From Pseudomonas nicosulfuronedens (lineage in GTDB: Bacteria > Pseudomonadota > Gammaproteobacteria > Pseudomonadales > Pseudomonadaceae): 64,000 nt of DNA. Under the pieces are notes generated by a model. The model saw nothing but the letters and a program-made list of their open reading frames with translations. It ran no database searches and had not been told where the DNA came from. The stretch is taken from assembly GCF_005877905.1 (NCBI RefSeq), contig NZ_SWDV01000010.1:62001-126000 (forward strand), read 5' to 3'. Both the position numbers and the translations under genes were made by a program. Below are positions 24,462 through 35,171 of the stretch, in pieces. Positions within the stretch are counted from its first letter, which is position 1. Each line of letters begins with the position of its first letter.

Positions 24462-24476
24462 GCGACGAAGTGTCGC
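24462..24476. promoter_or_regulatory. RoxR/RegA-like box upstream of ccoN1
   Basis: GCGAC-GAAGT-GTCGC is a perfect palindrome around five bases. It fits GNGRC-N5-GNCGC, the pattern known for RegA/PrrA/RegR-type response regulators, of which RoxR is the Pseudomonas member. The rest of the 340-bp leader (24402-24742) has no Anr box and no gene. Related boxes precede ccoG and anr. Confidence 0.6.
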
Positions 24477-24742
24477 ACCCTCTCTATCTCCTTTCTTCAC
24501 ACCCTCCCCGTTCGCGTCTAAGCTGGATTCCATTCGCAAACCTGCAATACGACTAACCTGACCCACTTCCCAGGTTGGTGCGAGCGAGCCGAAACGATCG
24601 GTAAGCGGCGGCGCAAAGCGCTCCAAAGCAGGCGTCAAACCGGCATCGCGCCACGGCCCGGCGCGTTGCAATGGCCACCTGCTTTCTCCATACTTGCCGC
24701 CGTTTTTTTGACCATAAAATCCAAAAACCGTGGAACCTTAGA

Positions 24743-26185
24743 ATGAGCACAGCAATCAGTCCGACTGCTTATAACTATAAGGTCGTCCGCCAGTTCGCCA
24801 TCATGACGGTGGTCTGGGGGATACTTGGAATGGGGGTCGGTGTTTACATCGCCTCACAGTTGGTTTGGCCCCAGTTGAACCTGGACCTTCCCTGGACCAG
24901 TTTCGGGCGCCTGCGTCCGCTGCACACCAACCTGGTGATCTTCGCCTTCGGCGGCTGTGCTCTCTTTGCAACTTCCTACTACGTCGTACAGCGCACCTGT
25001 CAGACCCGCCTGGTCTCTGACAGCCTCGCGGCCTTCACCTTCTGGGGTTGGCAAGCGGTAATCGTGCTGGCCGGCATCACCCTGCCGCTGGGCTACACCT
25101 CCTCCAAGGAGTACGCCGAGCTGGAATGGCCGATCGACATCCTGCTGGCCATCGTCTGGGTCACCTACGCACTGGTGTTCTTCGGCACCGTGATGAAGCG
25201 CAAGACCAAGCACATCTACGTGGGCAACTGGTTCTACGGTGCGTTCATCCTCGTTACCGCCATGCTGCACATCGTCAACAGCGCGGAACTGCCGGTCACC
25301 TGGTTCAAGTCCTACTCGGTCTACGCCGGCGCCACCGACGCGATGATCCAGTGGTGGTACGGCCACAACGCCGTGGGCTTCTTCCTGACCACCGGCTTCC
25401 TCGGCATGATGTACTACTTCGTTCCGAAGCAGGCCGAACGTCCGATCTACTCCTATCGCCTGTCCATCGTGCACTTCTGGGCGCTGATCACCCTGTACAT
25501 CTGGGCCGGCCCGCACCACCTGCACTACACCGCTCTGCCGGACTGGGCGCAGTCGCTGGGCATGGTGATGTCCCTGATCCTGCTGGCTCCGAGCTGGGGT
25601 GGCATGATCAACGGCATGATGACCCTGTCGGGCGCCTGGCATAAGCTGCGCACCGACCCGATCCTGCGCTTCCTGGTGGTCTCCCTCGCCTTCTACGGCA
25701 TGTCCACCTTCGAAGGCCCGATGATGGCGATCAAGACCGTCAACTCCCTGTCGCACTACACCGACTGGACCATCGGCCACGTACACGCCGGCGCTCTGGG
25801 CTGGGTTGCGATGATCTCCATCGGCTCCCTGTACCACCTGATTCCGAAGGTCTTCGGCCGCGAGCAGATGCACAGCGTGGGCCTGATCAACGCCCACTTC
25901 TGGCTGGCCACCATCGGTACCGTGCTGTACATCGCCTCCATGTGGGTCAACGGCATCACCCAGGGCCTGATGTGGCGTGCGATCAACGCCGACGGCACCC
26001 TCACCTACTCCTTCGTGGAAGCCCTGCAGGCCAGCCACCCGGGCTTCATCGTCCGTGCACTGGGCGGCGCCTTCTTCGCCTCCGGCATGCTGCTGATGGC
26101 CTACAACACCTTCCGTACTGTGCGCGGTTTCAAACAGGCTGACGCCGATGCCGCTGCCCAGATCCCCGCTGTAGGAGCTCACTGA
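24743..26185 (+). CDS. ccoN1: cbb3-type cytochrome c oxidase subunit I (cbb3-1)
   Basis: 480 residues with the same helices and heme/copper-ligand histidines as ccoN2 ([39 protein letters not shown]). Starting at [13 protein letters not shown] (24743) aligns it with the other copy; the longer in-frame reading is not family-like. It is the copy next to ccoG and lacks an Anr box, which fits the constitutive high-affinity oxidase cbb3-1 of P. aeruginosa. It overlaps ccoO1 by one base (TGATG). Confidence 0.95.
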
Positions 26186-26793
26186 TGAAGCACGAAGTAG
26201 TCGAGAAGAATATCGGCCTTCTGGCCTTCTTCATGGTCATTGCGGTGAGCATCGGCGGTCTGACCCAGATCGTTCCGCTGTTCTTCCAGGACGTCACCAA
26301 CAAGCCGGTCGAAGGCATGAAGCCGCGCACCGCGCTGGAACTGGAAGGCCGTGACATCTACATCCGCGAAGGCTGCGTAGGCTGCCACTCGCAGATGGTC
26401 CGTCCGTTCCGCGCCGAGACCGAGCGCTACGGCCACTACTCCGTCGCCGGCGAAAGCGTCTGGGACCACCCGTTCCTGTGGGGCTCCAAGCGTACCGGTC
26501 CGGACCTGGCCCGCGTCGGCGGCCGCTACTCCGACGACTGGCACCGCGCGCACCTGTACAACCCGCGCAACGTAGTGCCGGAATCGAAGATGCCCTCCTA
26601 CCCCTGGCTGGTGGAGAACAAGCTCGACGGCAAGGACACGGCGAAGAAAATGGAAGCCCTGCGTACGCTGGGCGTGCCTTACACCGACGAAGACATCGCC
26701 GGTGCCCGTGACGCCGTCAAAGGCAAGACCGAGATGGACGCTGTCGTCGCCTACCTGCAAGGCCTCGGCACCATCATCAAGAGCAAACGGTGA
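26185..26793 (+). CDS. ccoO1: cbb3-type oxidase monoheme subunit II (cbb3-1)
   Basis: 202 residues, nearly the same as ccoO2 with about 20 substitutions, and long identical DNA runs between the two. It has one CVGCH heme site and an N-terminal anchor. The high DNA similarity compared with ccoP suggests exchange between the copies. Confidence 0.95.
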
Positions 26794-26798
26794 CAGTG

Positions 26799-26990
26799 AT
26801 GGATATCGGGACCATTCGCGGTATCGGCACTGTAGTAGTCATGGTCGCCTTCGTCGGCGTCCTGCTCTGGGCCTATGGCGGCAAACGCAAGGAGCGCTTC
26901 GACGAAGACGCCCTGCTGCCCTTCGCGGATGACCCGGTCGCCAAAAAGCACGTCGAGCAAGAGCAAGCTTCTAGGAGCAACAAAGAATGA
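26799..26990 (+). CDS. ccoQ1: cbb3-type oxidase small subunit CcoQ (cbb3-1)
   Basis: 63 residues, differing from CcoQ2 at only about eight positions. It has a single helix followed by [16 protein letters not shown]. It overlaps ccoP1 by four bases (ATGA). Confidence 0.93.
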
Positions 26991-33668: not shown

Positions 33669-33678
33669 TACAGGTCAA
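33665..33678 (+). promoter_or_regulatory. Anr box upstream of hemN
   Basis: TTGAT-ACAG-GTCAA, one base off the consensus. It overlaps the stop codon of the upstream membrane-protein gene and lies 63 bp before hemN, which fits Anr-dependent expression of the oxygen-independent heme enzyme. Confidence 0.75.
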
Positions 33679-33740
33679 CAGGCCTCTGTCGGACTCTCCC
33701 TAGACTGCGCAGGAAAAGCTCGCCACCGGGGAACATCGGC

Positions 33741-35123
33741 ATGCTCGACAATATTCGCTGGGACGCAGATCTGATACGCCGATACGATCTGTCCGGCCCG
33801 CGCTACACCTCCTATCCCACAGCCGTGCAGTTCCACGAAGGAGTCGGACCCTTCGACCTGCTGCACGCGCTGCGCGATAGCCAGAAGGCGCAACGGCCGC
33901 TCTCGCTCTACGTGCACGTCCCGTTCTGCGCGAACATCTGCTACTACTGCGCCTGCAACAAGGTCATCACCAAGGATCGTGGTCGCAGCGCCCCCTACCT
34001 CGCCCGTCTCATCCACGAGATCGAGATCGTCAGCCGTCACCTGGGCCGCCAGCAGCCAGTCGAGCAACTGCATTTCGGCGGAGGTACCCCGACCTTCCTG
34101 AGCCCTGGCCAGCTACGCGAACTGATGGCGCAACTGCGCACTCACTTCCATTTCGTCGAGGGCGACTTCGGCGACTACGGTATCGAGATCGACCCACGCG
34201 AGGCCGACTGGTCGACCATGGGCCTGCTCCGCGAGCTGGGCTTCAACCGCGCCAGCATCGGCGTGCAGGACTTCAACCTGGAAGTGCAGCAGGCGATCAA
34301 CCGCCTGCAGAGCCTCGACGAGACCCGCGCCATCATCGACGCGGCGCGCACGCTGCAATTCCGCTCGATCAACATCGACCTGATCTACGGCCTGCCCCGG
34401 CAGACCCCGGACACCTTCGCCCGCACCGTCGAGCAGGTCATCGCTCTGCAGCCCAACCGGTTGTCCGTGTTCAACTACGCGCACCTCCCCGAGCGCTTTC
34501 CGCCCCAGCGGCGGATCAAGGCCGAGGACCTGCCCTCCCCCGGACAGAAGCTGGAGATGCTGCAACGCACCACCGAGCAACTGGAAGCCGCCGGGTACCG
34601 CTACATCGGCATGGACCACTTCGCCCTGCCGGACGACGAGCTGGCGATGGCCCAGGAAGACGGCACCCTGCAGCGCAACTTCCAGGGCTACACCACCCAC
34701 GGTCACTGCGACCTGGTCGGTCTTGGGGTCTCCTCGATCAGCCAGATCGGCGACCTCTACTGCCAGAACAGCAATGACATCGCGGACTACCAGAACACCC
34801 TCGACCAGGGCCAGCTCGCCACCCGGCGCGGCCTGCACTGCAACAAGGACGACCTGATCCGCCGCGCGGTGATCCAGCAGCTGATCTGCCACTTCCAGCT
34901 GGACTTCGAGGACATCGAGGATCTCTACAACATCGACTTCCGCGGCTACTTCGCGGAAATCTGGGACGACCTCGAACGCTTCGCCCGAGACGGCCTGATC
35001 ACCCTCGGCCCACGCGGTATCGACGTCAGCGCTTCCGGCCGGTTGCTGGTGCGCTCGCTGTGCATGCTGTTCGACCGCTACCTGCCAATGCAGAACCTGC
35101 AACGCTTCTCGCGGGTCATCTGA
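33741..35123 (+). CDS. hemN: Oxygen-independent coproporphyrinogen III oxidase (radical SAM)
   Basis: 460 residues. The radical SAM cluster motif CxxxCxxC is at Cys63, Cys67 and Cys70 (PFCANICYYCAC), followed by LHFGGGTPTFL, the SAM contacts in IEIDPRE and INIDLIYGLPRQT, and the C-terminal HemN domain. It converts coproporphyrinogen III to protoporphyrinogen IX without oxygen, which matters when cbb3 heme is made at low oxygen. Its neighbours (cco genes, anr) and the Anr box upstream support this role. Confidence 0.96.
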   Translation: MLDNIRWDADLIRRYDLSGPRYTSYPTAVQFHEGVGPFDLLHALRDSQKAQRPLSLYVHVPFCANICYYCACNKVITKDRGRSAPYLARLIHEIEIVSRHLGRQQPVEQLHFGGGTPTFLSPGQLRELMAQLRTHFHFVEGDFGDYGIEIDPREADWSTMGLLRELGFNRASIGVQDFNLEVQQAINRLQSLDETRAIIDAARTLQFRSINIDLIYGLPRQTPDTFARTVEQVIALQPNRLSVFNYAHLPERFPPQRRIKAEDLPSPGQKLEMLQRTTEQLEAAGYRYIGMDHFALPDDELAMAQEDGTLQRNFQGYTTHGHCDLVGLGVSSISQIGDLYCQNSNDIADYQNTLDQGQLATRRGLHCNKDDLIRRAVIQQLICHFQLDFEDIEDLYNIDFRGYFAEIWDDLERFARDGLITLGPRGIDVSASGRLLVRSLCMLFDRYLPMQNLQRFSRVI

Positions 35124-35156
35124 CCCGCAGGTTCCCCTCTGCACGACCGACGGTAC

Positions 35157-35171
35157 GGGGCCAACTGTCGC
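35157..35171. promoter_or_regulatory. RoxR/RegA-like box upstream of anr
   Basis: GGGGC-CAACT-GTCGC fits GNGRC-N5-GNCGC; the centre and right arm are identical to the ccoG box. It is 211 bp before anr. The rest of the 258-bp gap holds no other recognised site. Confidence 0.5.

Follow-up and report, generated by a model that had tools for sequence, protein, structure and literature searches.

In Pseudomonas, the redox two-component system RoxSR has as its response regulator RoxR, a member of the RegA/PrrA family; for its regulon, a study by Comolli and Donohue from 2002 is cited. RegA-type regulators have as targets the genes for cbb3 oxidase, quinol oxidase, the bc1 complex and cytochrome c. 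In P. aeruginosa, RoxSR activates cio and represses coxB according to the available part of PMC5436846, which gives no cis-element and names neither ccoG nor petA as a RoxR target. Motifs are reported, in the part available of PMC5506826, for RegR of Bradyrhizobium japonicum (GNGRCRTTNNGNCGC) and for PrrA of Rhodobacter sphaeroides (YSCGGC-N5-GWCRMA). Oxidase cbb3-1 is described as constitutively expressed in PMC5492768, the accessible text of which contains no cis-element. Here, a stretch of 64,000 nucleotides from Pseudomonas nicosulfuronedens (contig NZ_SWDV01000010.1, positions 62,001 to 126,000; the whole stretch is called the window) was analysed. It carries the palindromic box GCGAC-N5-GTCGC upstream of the oxidase gene ccoN1 and again upstream of the assembly gene ccoG. 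Both copies are conserved and would be activator sites, probably for RoxR, which is predicted to bind them.

With 98% identity between its CcoG and the one of strain TX1, the window belongs to a Pseudomonas close to P. nitroreducens. The features at the two promoters are:

24462..24476, + strand: strict palindrome GCGACGAAGTGTCGC with AC behind it, preceding ccoN1; putative RoxR site near -62
24519..24524, + strand: -10-like hexamer TAAGCT of the inferred ccoN1 promoter
24743..26185, + strand: ccoN1, cbb3 oxidase subunit I
28040..28054, + strand: strict palindrome GCGACCAACTGTCGC with AC behind it, preceding ccoG; putative RoxR site near -44
28079..28084, + strand: -10-like hexamer TATCAT of the inferred ccoG promoter
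28163..29578, + strand: ccoG, which heads the oxidase assembly/copper operon

The original prediction had named three 15-mers of the form GNGRC-N5-GNCGC, and all were found at their positions 24462, 28040 and 35157, the third upstream of anr. Each is composed of inverted GNGRC and GNCGC half-sites with a 5-bp spacer, and two are perfect palindromes. While the loose pattern fits all three, it is no commoner in the window than by chance (21 found vs 28.1 with a standard deviation of 6.0 in shuffles) and was for this lack of enrichment rejected as the unit of analysis. The strict palindrome is GCGAC-N5-GTCGC, often followed by AC. With up to one mismatch, it is not enriched in the window either (10 vs 8.1). 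Without mismatch, it is found at 31 places in the 6.68-Mb genome, where about 25 are expected from base composition. Two of these places fall in the window, 3.6 kb apart and both intergenic (about 0.24 expected per 64 kb). Since the loose and the strict counts are near chance, neither of them alone is evidence, and the location and conservation of the sites have to decide.

Relatives were selected by ccoG (the best 80 of more, named, each with flanks of at most 10 kb). In these, ccoN1, ccoG, ccoN2, hemN and anr were located by tblastn and the upstream regions scored, the window included. Upstream of ccoG, the box is present without mismatch in 61/81 regions and with at most one mismatch in 74/81; the latter boxes begin 113-136 bp before the gene. 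The corresponding numbers upstream of ccoN1 are 48/74 and 53/74. As composition control, all 30 permutations of GCGAC were used as half-sites. Over eight promoter panels, GCGAC yielded 139 strict matches and each of the 29 other permutations at most 4. When one mismatch was allowed, GCGAC ranked first of 30 at ccoG, ccoN1, petA and cyoA, second at anr and engB and 6th in a mixed set of cioA regions. The thinned sets, whose members were picked for having a site with no more than 2 mismatches, show 1.4-2.0 bits in the half-site columns and a flank mean of 0.27-0.51 bits. At ccoN1 and ccoG, the box is thus a genuine cis-element of a known kind that has been conserved. Conservation in related species had been proposed as a check for all three copies; the two boxes are kept in most relatives, the anr copy is not. 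Chance matches or functionless GC-rich sequence would agree with the unenriched loose pattern, with the strict genome count near the composition expectation and with the behaviour of the anr copy. As an account of all three sites this is highly improbable, because conservation and permutation controls exclude chance for ccoN1 and ccoG.

The ccoG site of the window overlaps TGTCGCACGGTTGCAA (28049-28064), which fits the ARG box given in the available part of PMC10963909. There, the ArgR regulon is also reported to overlap partly with those of RoxR and ANR. If the sites were ArgR boxes (TGTCGC-N6-GNAA), arginine instead of redox control would be exerted. However, ARG boxes consist, according to the same part of the paper, of tandem repeats 5 bp apart without inverted repeat. 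Anywhere upstream, such a box was found in only 6/81 ccoG and 6/74 ccoN1 regions, whereas the inverted repeat is kept in most of them. An identity with the ArgR box was rejected, TGTCGC-N6-GNAA being unconserved at both promoters, and arginine control can hardly be credited.

The boxes are located at fixed distances from -10-like hexamers. In the window, the centre of the ccoN1 box lies 274 bp 5' of the ATG and 50 bp 5' of the conserved TAAGCT. The ccoG box starts 123 bp 5' of the ATG, and its centre is 32 bp 5' of the conserved TATCAT. Among 52 scored ccoN1 regions, the distance between box centre and hexamer is 49-50 bp in 49 and 48 bp in 2, while one has no hexamer; among 74 scored ccoG regions, it is 32 bp in 56, 31 bp in 4 and 36-37 bp in 11, with none in 3. 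The hexamer patterns were picked after viewing the alignments; their frequency in reversed upstream sequence is 0.0006 and 0.0025 per position. These distances would place the box centres near -44 at ccoG and near -62 at ccoN1, counted from the inferred transcription starts. Both are usual positions for activators that touch RNA polymerase. In the alignments of both promoters the -35 region appears unconserved, and no sigma-70 pair passes a consensus scan at the ccoN1 or ccoG promoter of the window. We propose that a dimeric activator binds both boxes and acts from about -62 and about -44. An attenuator or leader hairpin was set aside because both boxes are situated upstream of the inferred -10 hexamers. 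A terminator was likewise dismissed, as the terminator-like hairpin at 27984-28013 precedes the ccoG box and is separate from it.

Enrichment at respiratory genes, which had been suggested as a check, was found in this genome: 4 of the 31 strict palindromes are located at respiratory operons, namely ccoN1, ccoG, cioA and cytochrome c5/c4, where about 0.05 are expected (P ~2e-7). This expectation allows for 25 respiratory operons, a guessed number, with 450 bp each. The cytochrome c site precedes a small cytochrome c gene with a cytochrome c4-like gene behind it. In 18 relatives, a search for the box plus AC returned 89 rows corresponding to 86 distinct places, of which 38 were assigned to promoters of cco, cyo, petA or cytochrome c genes. 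These comprise 29 cco places (assigned by reading, or by coordinates plus identical letters), 5 at cyoA, 1 at petA and 3 at cytochrome c/engB. The other places are 15 in the parB coding region (7 read, 8 assigned by identical letters), 14 further recurrent and 19 single ones. Because ccoG had served to choose the relatives, their cco places were no new finding; once these are omitted, 9/57 places are respiratory. A reversed-pattern control outnumbers the motif in all 18 genomes. This means that total counts are uninformative and only location counts.

The panels for cyoA, petA, cioA and engB were chosen from the genome-wide site list and are therefore a confirmation and not a blind test. Here, the cytochromes, CioA, PetA and CyoA, and further below the Yip1 protein, are the only identities checked with Pfam. 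A strict box is present at cyoA in 11/22 regions, while cyoA of this genome and of TX1 has none within one mismatch (2 mismatches). At petA, 3/30 regions have a strict box and 10/30 one with at most one mismatch. Within 2 mismatches it is found in 17/30 at 172-190 bp upstream, where this genome has GCGGCAAGGTGTCGC, but one permuted control reaches 29/30 at this stringency. The cytochrome c/engB regions contain a strict box in 5/30. In this weak panel, a matrix score of at least 14 is reached in 8/30 vs 5/30 reversed regions, and with at most one mismatch, one permuted control yields 13 vs 9 for GCGAC. The ccoN2 panel, searched 400 bp upstream, has a strict box in 7/63. Two more are located at 405 and 408 bp; the one at 408 bp belongs to P. 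viridiflava, which lacks the ccoG box.

For cioA, the genus of the window was examined as well. Among 25 genomes including its own, 12 have the strict box, 20 a box with at most one mismatch and 22 the loose form. The boxes form a tandem array in which GAGACAAGCTGTCGC directly adjoins GCGACACCCCGTCGC and an incomplete third unit, GCGGCAACCCACCAC, comes next. Counted from a start deduced from a -10-like hexamer, the units would lie near -74, -59 and -44, close to the positions at ccoN1 and ccoG. The box is thus found at a promoter published as RoxSR-activated in P. aeruginosa, and terminal oxidases are shared with the RoxSR regulon in the available part of PMC5436846. In 22 of the 25 genus genomes, the cioA promoter also carries an ANR-like TTGA-N6-TCAA upstream, which reads exactly TTGAGCGGCGTCAA in 13.

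The genome encodes RoxS and RoxR on contig C8. RoxR comprises 186 aa, and its best NCBIfam match is NF033791, the ActR/PrrA/RegA model, with 206 bits, below the cut-off of 250. Its DNA-binding helix MHRRTLQR is identical in the aligned segment to that of 1umq, which we take to be PrrA. RoxR was found in 30/30 relatives searched. The original prediction had assigned the three sites to the RegA/PrrA/RegR type. For the half-sites and the 5-bp spacer this holds: like GNGRCRTTNNGNCGC of B. japonicum, the Pseudomonas box has inverted GNGRC/GNCGC half-sites 5 bp apart, and it shares the spacer length with the R. sphaeroides PrrA site, whose right half GWCRMA is fitted by GTCGCA (both motifs from the available part of PMC5506826). 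It does not extend to the full motifs, since the RegR spacer contains RTT, which the spacers of the window sites lack, and the Pseudomonas box has the stricter palindrome and is often extended by AC. By eye, the petA site TGCGGCAAGGTGTCGCA of this genome fits the PrrA consensus, whereas the window sites are inexact and the left half of the ccoG site differs from it at one base. Exact matches occur among the sites of some relatives, for example for PrrA at petA in 8/17 and for RegR at ccoG in 4/75.

The family architecture of the box, its array at a known RoxSR target and the kinds of genes it precedes, which are those of RegA-type regulators, lead us to RoxR. As reader of the ccoN1 and ccoG boxes, which are conserved, recur at respiratory genes and coexist with RoxSR, RoxR is the best explanation, and this part of the original prediction is supported; the anr copy probably does not belong to it. 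RoxR would most likely be the proposed activator and would switch on cbb3-1, along with the operon for its assembly, without Anr. Through the same box, its targets would further be cioAB, the bc1 complex and a cytochrome c operon, to which cyoABCDE and ccoN2 would be added in other species of the genus. In a wider reading, which is plausible and for which the chances appear evenly balanced on the sequence evidence, GCGAC-N5-GTCGC[A] would define a Pseudomonas RoxR regulon of bc1, cytochrome c4/c5, cbb3-1 with its assembly operon, CIO and, in some species, bo3. The regulon would obey one redox signal in parallel to Anr, with single boxes near -44 or -60 and an array of 15-bp period at cioA. If true, such a regulon would account for the seemingly constitutive and Anr-independent expression of cbb3-1. 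The conserved box is a testable candidate for an Anr-independent setting of aerobic respiratory capacity in Pseudomonas, and the motif allows further Pseudomonas genomes to be screened for candidate RoxR targets. Fernandez-Pinar et al. reportedly proposed in 2008 a RoxR recognition element in P. putida, so that part of the RoxR-element finding may already be in print.

Several observations weigh against RoxR as the activator. The genomes counted are related, so their counts are not independent. No box within one mismatch was detected in 21/74 ccoN1 regions, and seven relatives without such a box at ccoG retain RoxR. The second ccoG spacing of 36-37 bp, about half a turn off, is found in 11/74 regions. 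In the mixed cioA set, where GCGAC has the low rank given above, a strict box is present in only 2/31 regions. Neither the RegR nor the PrrA consensus has an exact match among the three window sites. According to the part of PMC5506826 available, motifs of the RegA family are degenerate and differ despite identical helices, and RegA-bound promoters of At. ferrooxidans contain none of the published RegA-family motifs.

The co-occurrence of box and RoxR was also compared across more distant genomes. Among 281 genomes of Gammaproteobacteria, RoxR was found in 94 and CcoG in 149; RoxR was scored on the best 12 first-look candidates per genome, so that misses are possible. From the 149, 80 ccoG upstream regions were taken, 40 each from genomes with and without RoxR; the RoxR group includes one member of the same family, G161. 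The sample covers CcoG matches down to ~1e-149 and excludes the own genome, a contig-edge case (G218) and weaker matches. Outside the Pseudomonadaceae, a ccoG box with at most one mismatch is present in 0/39 genomes with RoxR and in 0/39 without it, a ccoN box in 1/35 and 1/33, respectively, so that the two groups do not differ at this stringency. With up to 2 mismatches, the ccoG numbers become 13/39 with vs 1/39 without RoxR, but 9/29 permuted controls reach 13. When G161 is included, they are 14/40 vs 1/39, at scattered distances, and 8/29 permuted controls do as well. At ccoN, 7/35 compare to 6/33. As permuted controls match the ccoG excess and the distances are scattered, nothing is drawn from it.

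A Pseudomonas regulator of aerobic respiration genes other than RoxR has to be considered as the one that uses the box as its conserved activator site. Conservation and gene set would fit any respiratory regulator. The box is rare at ccoG and ccoN outside the Pseudomonadaceae although RoxR is distributed more widely (94/281 genomes), and the relatives without a ccoG box keep RoxR. In addition, a literature search, in which texts were available in part, yielded no paper on a RoxR-bound element. The main texts of PMC8041468 and PMC13086498 contain no RoxR, PA4493 or half-sites. On the other hand, the RoxSR-activated cioA promoter carries the box array in the genus of the window, the box resembles the RegR and PrrA sites in its half-sites and 5-bp spacer, and the target set is that of RegA-type regulators. 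Another regulator is unlikely, though less so than ArgR or chance, and RoxR remains preferred.

The following features concern the relation to Anr and the remainder of the locus:

21036..21050, + strand: weak site GCGACAAAGGACCGC, score 15.0, 206 bp upstream of ccoN2 and 46 bp before the Anr box; not among the three sites of the original prediction
21082..21095, + strand: perfect Anr box TTGATCCGAATCAA upstream of ccoN2
30250-32727, + strand: heavy-metal P-type ATPase gene downstream of ccoG
35157..35171, + strand: degenerate, unconserved and doubtful site GGGGCCAACTGTCGC upstream of anr
35382..36116, + strand: anr, encoding the Fnr-type oxygen regulator

The right half of the anr site is identical to that of ccoG; the left half is degenerate and reads AGGGC in P. 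nitroreducens TX1, the nearest relative, and in P. schmalbachii the site is absent. Upstream of anr, a strict box is found in 2/75 regions and one with at most one mismatch in 12/75, at scattered positions; the best permuted control reaches 12/75, too. The matrix used for the window was trained on the ccoN1 and ccoG sites of the relatives. Therefore, these two promoters are expected as top matches in the window, but those at ccoN2 and anr are not. The ccoN2 site is the third-best distinct match; at the same place it was not seen in six relatives aligned. The anr site is fourth among the distinct window sites with a score of 14.5, and the best score in the reversed window is 14.2. Since it exceeds every position of the reversed window, a recent, species-level anr site is possible. 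A matrix score of at least 14 on either strand is reached upstream of anr in 4/75 regions vs 0/75 reversed ones. In one relative, a strict box precedes anr by 277 bp.

The original prediction had placed a redox (RoxSR) layer above Anr, with all three sites as its elements. This is quite improbable, less likely even than a regulator other than RoxR. The score above the reversed best, the 4/75 regions and the strict box of the one relative speak for it; the count equal to that of the best permuted control at scattered positions, the loss of the left half in TX1 and of the whole site in P. schmalbachii speak against it. As the anr copy is the weak and unconserved one, a layer above Anr is unsupported, and this third copy is probably not part of the redox-regulator box set.

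The consensus of the ANR box is TTGAT-N4-ATCAA. Besides the perfect box at ccoN2, one with 1 mismatch is located upstream of hemN at 33665, in the same gene cluster. By contrast, the upstream regions of ccoN1 and ccoG in the window contain no ANR box within 2 mismatches. The earlier statement that ccoN1 lacks an Anr box could thus be confirmed, and the same applies to ccoG. In the window, this arrangement would fit parallel control by two routes, with ccoN2 and hemN under Anr and with ccoN1 and ccoG under the box, for which RoxR is preferred.

All genes of the locus are on the + strand in the order ccoN2..ccoP2, ccoN1..ccoP1, ccoG, heavy-metal P-type ATPase, hemN and anr. A family search with two smaller frames lying between these genes returned no match; ccoH and ccoS are the usual names for such frames. 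The 11-mer CAACTGTCGCA is found 35 times in the window with up to 2 mismatches, where 22.5 are expected and no shuffle reaches 35, an unexplained excess.

Outside the respiratory promoters, recurrent matches inside parB, an IS66-type transposase gene and znuB and in the DUF3108/DUF2058 intergene were dropped as probably not regulatory. These genes as well as dsbB, ttcA, aceE, glnE and the gene for an OFA-type transporter were named by eye from translations. At the parB locus, many of the 18 genomes carry GCGACATGTTGTCGCAC or GCGACACGTTGTCGCAC, 17-mers built like the box, and this palindrome at a fixed place is probably due to coding constraint. In two relatives, a box lies in the gap between ttcA and a gene for a Yip1-domain membrane protein, and the genome of the window has a strict palindrome upstream of its Yip1 gene. 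The aceE/glnE gap contains a box about 182 bp upstream of aceE in two relatives, and a recurrent intergenic box is found at the gene for the OFA-type transporter in two genomes. Furthermore, the genome of the window carries a strict palindrome at position 28960 of contig C16 (L009, 1501-1515), just upstream of a putative hemE gene of heme biosynthesis, in which GTCGC is followed by TG.

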